Source of the DNA: Vicinamibacterales bacterium
GTDB taxonomy: Bacteria; Acidobacteriota; Vicinamibacteria; Vicinamibacterales; UBA8438
Direction: 5' to 3'
Length of the DNA: 64,000 bases
Assembly (NCBI GenBank): GCA_937766455.1
Contig: CALLXD010000042.1
Span: 1 to 64,000, forward strand
The notes beneath the pieces are model-generated. The model did not search any database. It was not told the origin of the DNA and worked only from the letters and a program-made list of their open reading frames with translations. Made by a program: the position numbers and the translations under genes. Shown here piece by piece: positions 2,946-47,551 of the stretch. Numbering within the stretch: position 1 is the first letter of the stretch; each line of letters begins with the position of its first letter.

Positions 2946-3878
2946 CGCGTGGCTCCCTCCGGGGAGGCGTCTCGGTGTCCGACGGTTGCCAAGTAGATTT
3001 CCTCGATGTGCGAGTGGTCCAGCTTGATCGACTGAATCGCTACCCGAACTAGCACCGCCCGCATCACGGTCTGGGGGTCCGTGTCCGGTTCGAGTTCCAG
3101 ACGGGCCTCGTGCCCCGTGTCTTCGCAGCGCCGGATGCCGGCGAGCGCACCGAGCGTTCCCCGACTCCCGTGATACTCGACGGCGATGGTGTTTCGCCCG
3201 TAGCCGGCCTTGATGGCGGCAAGATTCCCCTCCAGGACCGGCCGGCCCTGTGAATGAGGCAGATCGCGTCACACAGTGCCTCCACCTGCTCCATACGATG
3301 CGTGGAGATCACCACCGTGGCGCCACGGTCGTGCTGTTCCAAAATCAGCTCCTTCAGTAACCGCGTGTTGACCGGGTCGAGCCCGGTGAAGGGCTCGTCG
3401 AGGACGATCAGGTCCGGGTCATGGATGACCGCGGCTGCGAACTACACCTTCTGCTGCATCCCCTTGGATAGCTCGCTCGTCAGCGACTGGGCATTGGCGG
3501 ACAGTCCGACGCGTTCGAGCCAATCGTCGGCGCGCCGTTGCGCCTCTTGGGTGTCCAGTCCGCGAATGGATGCGAGAAACGCCAGCTGTTCTCCAACCCG
3601 CATCCGTGCGTAGAGTCCGCGCTCCTCCGGAGATAGCCGACCCGATGCCTGACCGCAAGCGGATCAGCGGCACCGAGAAGACTGACCGAGCCGCCATCTG
3701 GCACGTAGATACCGAGGGTGGTGCGGATGGTCGATGTCTTGCCGGACCCGTTCGGCCCGAGCAGCCCGAAGATGCTGCCCGTCGGCACCGTCAGGTCGAG
3801 TTCGTTCACCGCGATCTTGTCCGCAAACCGCTTCACGAGCTTGTGGCACTCAATCGCCGCCGGAATGGTTGTGTGCAT
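2942..3878 (-). pseudogene. ABC transporter ATP-binding protein (NatA-like), two frameshifts and one in-frame TAG
   Basis: This is the cytoplasmic ATPase partner of the downstream permease. The Walker A motif GPNGSGKTSTI lies near residue 40, the signature region reads LSKGMQQKV and the Walker B DLIVLDEPFTGLDP, followed by the H-loop VVISTHRMEQVE. A C-terminal extension ends with HIEEIYLATVGHRD, as in NatA-type exporters. The frame is broken near 3628 (VGYL should continue PEERGLYARM; one C missing) and near 3246 (HRGRPVLEG; one G missing). A TAG at 3442-3444 replaces the usual Gln in QQKVQFAAA. The stop codon overlaps the permease start as ATGA. If the sequence is correct the exporter is dead; if not, it is an ordinary exporter operon. 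Confidence 0.75.
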
Positions 3879-44405: not shown

Positions 44406-45614
44406 TTGGGAGGACGAGAGATGGCACGCAGGATAGTCGAGGCAACGTTTGCGCTGCTCCTGATAGCGGGTGCCAACGATGCTCTGCACGCCCAGGAGGC
44501 CGTCCGGGCCGCCAACGAGAACCTGGCGCCCGGTAGCGAGACCGACGATCTCGGGATTACGATACCGTTCTCCCTATCGCATCCCGGGCGTCTCTACCCG
44601 GCATCCGACGAGTTTCCCACCGGGCCTGAGATTGGCGAGCGACTGCCGACGTTTTCGCTCCCCAACCAGCACGGGCGCACGGTCGATTTCCATACGGATC
44701 GGGGCAACTCGAAATCTATCGTGGTGTTCTACCGGTCGGCCGTGTGGTGACCGTATTGCCGCACGCAGCTGGTCGAGCTGCAAGACAACCTGAGTCTCTT
44801 CTCGGAAGCCGGTATCAAGGTGTACGGCGTCAGCTATGACAGCCAGGAGCAGTTGTTGGTCTTCGGCGAGCAGTACGACGTGACCTACGACCTGCTGTCA
44901 GATGTCGAGTCGGCCGTCATCCGCGAGTTCGGCATTCTCAACACACTGATCGCGCCGGACGACCCGACGCAGATCGCCGGACGCAGCGTCTTCGGTGTGC
45001 CGTTCCCGGGTGTGTACGTGACTGACGAGCGCGGGGTGGTGACCGAGAAGTTCTTCCACCGCCATTACGCCACCCGGGAGTCCGCTGGGGCCATCCGAGA
45101 CTCGGCCTTGGGCGAGATTCTGGCGCGCCACGAGACGCCGGCAGTCGGGCTGACGAACGATCAGGTCCGGATCTCGGCCTTCTTGTCCGATACGTCGCTG
45201 ACGTTCGAGACGCAGTCGACGATCTACGTGCGATTCGAGCTCGAAGAGGGGCTGCATATGTATGGCCGACCGCTTCCCGACGGCTACATCGCCTCCGAGG
45301 CGACCATTCTCGACACGGCGGGGCTCCGGGTGGGAGCGGCGAGCTACCCGCCCACGCATCCGCTTGCGTTTCCTGCGCTTGGCGTCACACTCAACGTCTA
45401 CGAAGGGGTGGTGGACGTCGCGATTCCGGTGACGCCGAACTCGGAGCTGTTCGGACCTGGGCCCTCGAACCAGCCGACGGAATTGGATATTCCGATCTCG
45501 GTGCTGTTCCAGGCGTGCAGCGACACCATCTGCTATACCCCGAGGAACGAGCGGTTCTCGCTGACGCTGCCGGTTGCGCCGTTGTTGCAACCGGGGCAGC
45601 CGAGGACGCCCTAG
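44406..45614 (+). CDS. Probable selenocysteine-containing periplasmic redoxin with C-terminal DsbD-N-like domain
   Basis: A 402-codon frame begins MARRIVEATFALLLIAGAND with a Sec signal, so the protein is exported. Residues about 75-235 form an AhpC/TSA-like redoxin: LPTFSLPNQHGRTVDFH, SIVVFYRSAVW, then TGA at codon 115 and PYCRTQLVELQ, IKVYGVSYDSQEQL, FGVPFPGVYVTDERGVV. In relatives the TGA position is the first Cys of W-C-P-Y-C. The frame is the same and uninterrupted on both sides, and a SECIS-like hairpin follows. Selenocysteine insertion is therefore the best reading; a Cys-to-stop mutation would need a transversion and kill the protein. Residues about 250-390 resemble the DsbD alpha domain, with the Cys pair C371/C376 in ACSDTICYTP. 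The predicted active pair is U115/C118. An alternative start near the TGA is unlikely because it would remove the signal and active site. Confidence 0.8.
44748..44781 (+). promoter_or_regulatory. In-frame UGA and bSECIS-like stem-loop
   Basis: The TGA (44748-44750) is followed after 14 bases by a perfect 6-bp stem GCAGCT (44765-44770) and AGCTGC (44776-44781) around the 5-base loop GGTCG. The loop starts with GG, 20 bases after the UGA, inside the 16-37-base range for bacterial SECIS loops. The E. coli fdhF loop also contains GGUC, from memory. The hairpin overlaps codons for TQLVEL, so protein conservation could contribute to it. Confidence 0.7.
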
Positions 45615-45643: not shown

Positions 45644-47551
45644 ATGGCTGGATTTACCTCGAGATTGGTTATGCGGGTGGCGGTTCTTTTGCTGGCAGTG
45701 GGCTGCCTGGCGGCGAGTGCCCAGGATCCTCAACAGGGTGCGACCGACTGGCCGAGCACCAACTTCACCCAGAGCGCCAACCGCTACAGCCCGCTGACCC
45801 AGATCACGGCTGAGAATGTCGCCACGCTTGAGCGCGTTTGGAGCTTTCACTTGAAGCCGGCCGACTATACCGGTCGTCTCCGGGAAGACCAGGCCATTCC
45901 CCTCGTGATTGGCACCACGATGTATCTCGCCTCGCCCTATGGTGCCGTCATCGCACTGGACGCCACGACCGGTGCAGAACAATGGCGATTCGACATTCCC
46001 GAGAACGCGTTGCCGTCGAAGCGCGGTCTTGCGTACTGGCCGGGCGACGGAGACGTCCCACCGTCGCTGCTGTTCGGTGCCAGCTCGGGCGGGCTGTACT
46101 CGATCAAAGCCTCGGACGGCACACCGAATACAGGGTTTGGGGAGAATGGCGTCGTCGACTTGAAGACACCCGAGGTGATGCGGAACTTCACGGACGCGGG
46201 CTACTTGCTCCTGTCGTCTCCGACCATCTACAAGAATCTGGTTATCACGGGGGCGGGAACCGGAGAAGGGCGCGCTTTTCCGAAGGGCACCGGACCGGCA
46301 GGTGATACGCGAGCCTGGGACGCGCGGACCGGCGAGCTGGTCTGGACGTTCGAGACCGTGCCAGGACCAGATGACTTCGGCTATGACTCGTGGGCCGGCG
46401 ACAGTGCCAGGGATCGTTCCGGCGTCAATGTCTGGGGCTACATGTCGGTCGATACGGAGCGCGGCATTCTGTACATGCCGATCGGGGCTCCGAATGACGA
46501 CCGCGTCGGCGTTGATCGCCCCGGAGACAACCTGTTCTCGTCGTCGATCGTCGCGGTTGATGCCAATAACGGCGAGTATCTGTGGCATTTTCAGCTCGTC
46601 CATCACGACATCTGGGACTACGACGCACAGTCGGCGCCGCTTGTCGTCGACCTCATGCGCGACGGCGAATCCGTGCCGGCCCTCATTGTCGTCAACAAGA
46701 CCGGCTTGCTGTTCACGTTCAATCGGGTCACCGGAGAGCCGCTGTTCGAGATTGAAGAGCGGCCGGTGCCGGCGAGCGACGTGCCTGGCGAGCAGGCGTC
46801 ACCCACGCAACCGTTCCCGGTCAAGCCCGAGCCGCTGACGCAGAATACGCTCTCCCGCGACAACCTCTATAAGGGCGAGCCTGAGCATCAGGCCTACTGC
46901 GAGCGATTGGTTGACGACAACGATATGAAGCTGGGTGGGCCCTACATGCCCATCACGCCCAACCAATACAGCATGTCCCCCCCCGGATCGGCGGGCGGCA
47001 TCAATTTCTGGGGTCCCGCCTACGACCCCGATCTGAATCTGTTTATTTCGAATACCACCAATATGTTTCAGCCGATGCGGCTGATTCAGCGGCCAAACGG
47101 TTCGTGGGTCAATCAAGGACCGTTGGCCGGGGTGCGTCGTTTCGGCGATCCCGATCGGCGTCTGCTGTGCGGGCCGACGCCCTGGGGTGAGCTCGTGGCC
47201 GTCAATATGACGACCGGCGACATCGCGTATCGCAAGACGCTTGGCGTCTCCGATATGTTGCCTGCCGGCCTGCAGGACACCGGCCGTCCAAGTTCAGGCG
47301 GCGTGATTCTGACGGCGAGCGGCCTCACGTTCGTTGGGGGCAGCGACGACTTCAGGTTCCGCGCGTTTGCGACCGCGACCGGCGAACAGCTGTGGGAGCT
47401 GAGATTGCCGTCGTCGATCGAAACGACGCCCATTACCTACCTGGGCGCCGATGGACGGCAATTCGTCACCGTGGTGAGCACCGGTGGTGGGCTGACCGGG
47501 TCACAAGTTACCAACGATGAGATCATCGCCCTCGCGCTCCCGATGAACTGA
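45644..47551 (+). CDS. PQQ-dependent dehydrogenase (quinoprotein, membrane/periplasmic glucose dehydrogenase-like)
   Basis: A 635-residue eight-bladed propeller enzyme oxidising an alcohol or aldose with PQQ in the periplasm. A signal peptide ends AASAQD. Characteristic segments: SANRYSPLTQITAENVATLE, GAVIALDATTGAEQWRFD, RAWDARTGELVWTFETVP, LYMPIGAPNDDRVGVDRPGD, YLWHFQLVHHDIWDYDAQSA and PSSGGVILTASGLTFVGGSD. There is no CxxCH, so electrons leave through a separate carrier. It follows the selenoredoxin by 29 bp and may be co-transcribed. The absence of a vicinal Cys pair suggests the glucose/soluble-type, not methanol dehydrogenase; the substrate is inferred. Confidence 0.88.
   Translation: MAGFTSRLVMRVAVLLLAVGCLAASAQDPQQGATDWPSTNFTQSANRYSPLTQITAENVATLERVWSFHLKPADYTGRLREDQAIPLVIGTTMYLASPYGAVIALDATTGAEQWRFDIPENALPSKRGLAYWPGDGDVPPSLLFGASSGGLYSIKASDGTPNTGFGENGVVDLKTPEVMRNFTDAGYLLLSSPTIYKNLVITGAGTGEGRAFPKGTGPAGDTRAWDARTGELVWTFETVPGPDDFGYDSWAGDSARDRSGVNVWGYMSVDTERGILYMPIGAPNDDRVGVDRPGDNLFSSSIVAVDANNGEYLWHFQLVHHDIWDYDAQSAPLVVDLMRDGESVPALIVVNKTGLLFTFNRVTGEPLFEIEERPVPASDVPGEQASPTQPFPVKPEPLTQNTLSRDNLYKGEPEHQAYCERLVDDNDMKLGGPYMPITPNQYSMSPPGSAGGINFWGPAYDPDLNLFISNTTNMFQPMRLIQRPNGSWVNQGPLAGVRRFGDPDRRLLCGPTPWGELVAVNMTTGDIAYRKTLGVSDMLPAGLQDTGRPSSGGVILTASGLTFVGGSDDFRFRAFATATGEQLWELRLPSSIETTPITYLGADGRQFVTVVSTGGGLTGSQVTNDEIIALALPMN

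Follow-up and report, generated by a model that had tools for sequence, protein, structure and literature searches.

Does a single TGA within an otherwise open redoxin gene end translation, or is it read as selenocysteine (Sec)? In the window, by which we mean the whole 64,000-nucleotide stretch of DNA analyzed, the frame from 44406 to 45614 is interrupted solely by the TGA at 44748-44750, within the sequence W-TGA-P-Y-C, just as the original prediction had described. The likely start of the gene is not TTG 44406 but ATG 44421, which is closely preceded by GGGAGG, and its stop codon is the TAG at 45612-45614; with this start, the TGA is codon 110, and the product has 397 residues with Sec at position 110. 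The features assigned to the locus are listed in Table 1.

Table 1. Features assigned at the redoxin locus, in window coordinates.
Feature	Position	Strand	Basis
Selenoprotein gene, Prx-like (AhpC/TSA) redoxin with DsbD_N-like domain	44421..45614	+	Open frame with one TGA; Pfam matches
Probable signal peptide MARRIVEATFALLLIAGANDALHAQ	44421..44495	+	Judged by eye
AhpC-TSA / redoxin domain	44631..45047	+	PF00578; AlphaFold model matches Bcp/AhpE/AhpC structures
Codon read as selenocysteine (U) in W-U-P-Y-C (UGA)	44748..44750	+	TGA in 30/32 relatives and two paralogues; tRNA-Sec UCA in genome
Resolving-type Cys of U-x-x-C motif	44757..44759	+	Invariant in 29-sequence alignment
bSECIS-like hairpin, 6-bp stem GCAGCT/AGCTGC, loop GGUCG	44765..44781	+	Fold; zero synonymous variation; stem conserved
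DsbD N-terminal-like domain, invariant Cys pair FQACSDTICYTP	45204..45563	+	PF11412; both Cys invariant in 29 homologues

Searched at the protein level, bacterial genomes yielded 32 redoxin loci, nearly all in assemblies named Acidobacteriota, and the homologous codon is TGA in 30 of these relatives, which come from separately assembled genomes; of the other two, L058 has TGC (Cys) and L055 starts past the UGA site at its contig end. The genome itself contains two redoxin paralogues, 70% and 34% identical, both with W-TGA-P-Y-C. Of 396 genomes sampled from the phylum, 49 carry the family at E <= 1e-30, and our reading of the match table assigns a TGA-bearing copy to 43 of these 49 and only stop-free copies to the remaining six. 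The expectation that relatives have W-C-P-Y-C was mistaken: close relatives have W-UGA-P-Y-C, and Cys occupies the Sec position in a minority of homologues, among the more distant ones. A conserved in-frame UGA that is replaced by Cys in some homologues is a hallmark of bacterial selenoproteins. Five matches (L064, L065, L070, L071, and L072) were also flagged as having one TAG besides the TGA.

These comparisons bear directly on whether the TGA is an error of sequencing or assembly, so that the codon would really be TGC or TGT and the product an ordinary Cys redoxin. The assembly is fragmented (78 contigs, 85% complete), and the window has at least one other in-frame stop in a conserved gene, the TAG at 3442-3444, but the same TGA recurs across dozens of separate assemblies and in both paralogues, which lie on other contigs. 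Independent sequencing errors cannot explain such recurrence, and we regard this explanation as already refuted, with a negligible residual probability.

The genome also encodes the machinery that selenocysteine decoding requires of a bacterium: selA (533.9 bits), selB (344.8 bits), and selD (291 bits), all above curated cut-offs, together with a tRNA-Sec (selC) carrying a UCA anticodon, so that all four genes for which a search had been proposed are present. Among genomes bearing the redoxin, selA occurs in 37 of the 43 with a TGA copy and in two of the six with Cys only (Fisher p = 0.012, uncorrected for relatedness); it was not found in six of the 43 TGA-bearing genomes, several of which are incomplete or fragmented assemblies. 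Gene order adds a further connection. At the loci L118 and L119, which belong to genomes G028 and G183, selA, selB, and selD come after a TGA-bearing redoxin, all on one strand, in G028, and the redoxin adjoins selA and an oxidoreductase-SelD fusion in G183. This arrangement links the family to selenocysteine use through gene position, in addition to sequence.

The UGA could in principle be read by another route, through near-cognate read-through as Trp or Cys or through a reassigned code. We found no direct support for this explanation, and against it stand the tRNA-Sec with its UCA anticodon and the selA, selB, and selD genes, the termination of ordinary genes by UGA in this organism (e.g., a PQQ dehydrogenase at 47549), and the location of the UGA, which lies at a redox Cys position in every aligned copy. 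We judge it extremely improbable, and Sec decoding at UGA 44748 is, on comparative grounds, very well supported.

The hairpin downstream of the UGA has the geometry originally proposed for it, as both the sequence and the predicted fold confirm: the stem arms occupy 44765-44770 and 44776-44781, the GGTCG loop occupies 44771-44775, and the stem and the loop start 14 and 20 nt after the TGA, respectively. Its weight as evidence needs to be apportioned differently. The minimum-energy fold of 59 nt at the hairpin has a modest z-score of -2.2, the same six pairs arise in about 16% of random synonymous recodings that preserve the peptide and the local codon usage, and about 10% of synonymous recodings of the hairpin peptide reach an equal or lower energy; the conserved peptide QLVELQ also accounts for part of the pairing. 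Given the modest z-score and the frequency of the stem among recodings, we set thermodynamics alone aside, and the hairpin taken by itself had been overrated.

Its invariance across species, in contrast, goes far beyond chance. When 34 distinct homologues sharing 50% or more identity with our protein are compared, codons +5 to +10 (ACG CAG CTG GTC GAG CTG) display zero synonymous variation; for conserved codons of four- or six-fold degeneracy outside the hairpin, the mean diversity is 0.43, and the value of the hairpin's codons was not reached once in 100,000 degeneracy-matched resamplings. A second codon analysis took in wider homologues, and ten loci in which the motif filter was unmatched or the stretch was absent were left out of it (L055, L079, L080, L085, L100, L110, L112, L113, L115, and L117). 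Among these wider homologues, all six stem pairs are kept in 27 of 28 distinct Sec sequences and in one of four distinct Cys sequences, counts that ignore relatedness, and in L077 and L081 the outer stem pair has changed from G-C to C-G with both sides swapped. The lack of synonymous variation among the 34 closer homologues indicates strong constraint on silent changes in the hairpin, and a conserved bSECIS-type hairpin shortly downstream of the UGA is what a bacterial selenoprotein gene should possess. In a more distant paralogue group (L003, L078, L083, and similar loci), the loops are often CGUGG or CGUCG rather than GGUCG, with GU at positions 2-3 and G at position 5 constant.

Bacterial SECIS elements are highly variable. 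For this reason, the absence of any SECIS-type family at the UGA site in Rfam searches, at both curated and relaxed thresholds, does not count against the hairpin.

Other genes in this genome raise related questions. A scan for the AhpC-TSA family found an in-frame TGA in six of the 14 copies above the cut-off, with TGGU, WUGC, and FULPC centers among them, and selenocysteine use in this organism appears to extend to several redoxins. L123 (541-543, G000:C17) has its TGA in TGGUTAQC and resembles T-x-x-U peroxiredoxin selenoproteins; L124 (615-617, G000:C37), with WASWUGC, resembles UGC-containing Prx-like selenoproteins; and L125 (501-503, G000:C55) has FULPC and a long hairpin directly 3'. 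The in-frame TAG at 3442-3444 of the window is of a different nature: it lies on the minus strand, at a position where Gln is expected in a sequence resembling ABC-transporter ATPases (LSKGMQQKV*FAAAVIHDPDLIVLDEP). Selenocysteine does not fit as an explanation there; error, pseudogene, and recoding are the candidates.

The protein combines two redox domains. AhpC-TSA (PF00578) scores 94.9 bits against a cut-off of 26, better than Redoxin (PF08534) at 47.4 bits, and DsbD_N (PF11412) scores 45.4 bits against a cut-off of 25, C-terminal in the same chain. The original identification of a redoxin with UGA at the catalytic Cys position was sound, although it missed both the second redox domain and the two paralogues. 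In the AlphaFold model, whose mean pLDDT is 82.7, the first domain matches structures of Bcp, AhpE, and other peroxiredoxins. No family in an NCBIfam search exceeded its cut-off, so no curated family name applies. The peroxiredoxin signature P-x3-T/S-x2-C/U is absent, residue -7 being F in 84 of 84 homologues examined and residue -3 being A in 83 of 84; since the T-x-x-C signature is missing, we rejected membership in the canonical peroxiredoxins, and the W-U-P-Y-C center at the catalytic position is best described as a U-x-x-C of thioredoxin type set on a peroxiredoxin-like fold. The N-terminus, read by eye, has a basic start, a hydrophobic core, and a small residue near its end, and the protein is probably exported.

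The conservation of these domains also bears on whether the TGA simply terminates a truncated gene or pseudogene, with a shorter second product made from GTG 44820. A GTG-started open frame does extend from 44820 to 45614, but in diverged homologues the protein stays conserved through the TGA and over hundreds of residues. The 29-sequence alignment, in which U was entered as C, has no variation at the U/C position, at the second Cys, or at either Cys of the distal QAC...C motif, and this conservation within the distal domain, like the selenocysteine machinery in the genome, speaks against truncation, to which we assign a very low probability.

The apparent stop thus almost certainly encodes selenocysteine, as codon conservation, Cys replacement in some homologues, the machinery, and hairpin constraint all suggest, in agreement with the original prediction. 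Since the hairpin alone would be weak evidence, arising as it does in about one in six synonymous recodings, it is conservation that carries the case. We are highly confident that the gene is a genuine selenoprotein gene in which SelB and the hairpin decode UGA 44748 as Sec110, yielding a probably exported Prx-like redoxin with a DsbD-alpha-like domain.

From these conserved parts we infer the following cycle. SelB carrying Sec-tRNA(Sec), with its UCA anticodon, would bind the hairpin just downstream, and UGA 44748 would be decoded as Sec110. The Sec of the Sec-Pro-Tyr-Cys center would then attack a substrate, either a hydroperoxide or a disulfide, and Cys113 would resolve the intermediate to form a Se-S bond. 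Electrons from membrane DsbD could pass through the C-terminal DsbD-like Cys pair to this bond; a complete DsbD, with DsbD_N, membrane, and thioredoxin domains, is encoded in the genome. Its probable role is that of an exported thiol:disulfide oxidoreductase or peroxidase that receives electrons via its DsbD-like domain, with peroxide and protein disulfide both possible substrates. The intramolecular electron path is putative, and the AlphaFold model does not establish that the two redox centers touch. More tentatively, and with rather less than even confidence, we suggest an exported selenoenzyme with a built-in DsbD-alpha-like reductant module, bringing electrons from membrane DsbD to selenocysteine in one polypeptide and supporting selenium-dependent peroxide or disulfide reduction in the Acidobacteriota envelope.

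Genes with an in-frame UGA are easily shortened or overlooked in annotation, because the UGA is taken as a stop. With three copies in this genome and a place next to selenocysteine genes in some relatives, this family, which commonly occurs in assemblies of Vicinamibacterales and Thermoanaerobaculia, is well suited as a marker of selenium use in Acidobacteriota and as a test case for it. The fused DsbD-like domain points to a route, open to testing, by which electrons could reach selenocysteine outside the cytoplasm. In the open-licence papers searched, we found no account of its distribution in Acidobacteriota, its multiple copies, or its association with a sel gene cluster, and a text search combining Vicinamibacter with selenocysteine returned nothing that looked relevant by titles and abstracts.

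Known systems nevertheless provide close counterparts. The thiol peroxidases Bcp/PrxQ and AhpE share the fold and are the best NCBIfam and PDB matches, but our redoxin lacks the peroxiredoxin P-x3-T-x2-C (F at -7, A at -3) and reaches 63 bits against the PrxQ-type cut-off of 140. It shares with the N-terminal (alpha) domain of DsbD the PF11412 match and the invariant Cys pair; in our protein this domain is joined to a redoxin, and the membrane and C-terminal thioredoxin domains that DsbD has are missing. A review lists, in its Table 1, a Prx-like thiol:disulfide oxidoreductase selenoprotein with PF00578 and UxxC, both found here, and a Redoxin family selenoprotein with PF08534 and UxxC (PMC13188914). 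The former is listed by a single domain, whereas our protein adds a C-terminal DsbD_N-like domain; the latter shares the PF08534 match and the motif, although PF00578 matches better here, a comparison made by description only. The closest counterpart is the Prx-like selenoprotein (U/CxxC) fused to Pfam11412, there called DsbC, in Figure 2D of Xu et al. 2021, which derives from marine Global Ocean Sampling (GOS) reads (PMC9402790). Pfam11412 is the DsbD_N model matched here, and both domains, the U/CxxC motif, and extra conserved Cys in the fused domain are common to the two proteins; the passages describing that fusion, on which the comparison is based, give no Acidobacteriota assignment, gene context, or hairpin constraint. 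Since the same fusion is described there, we assign our redoxin to this known type: it is a well-supported new example of an already reported selenoprotein rather than a new kind.
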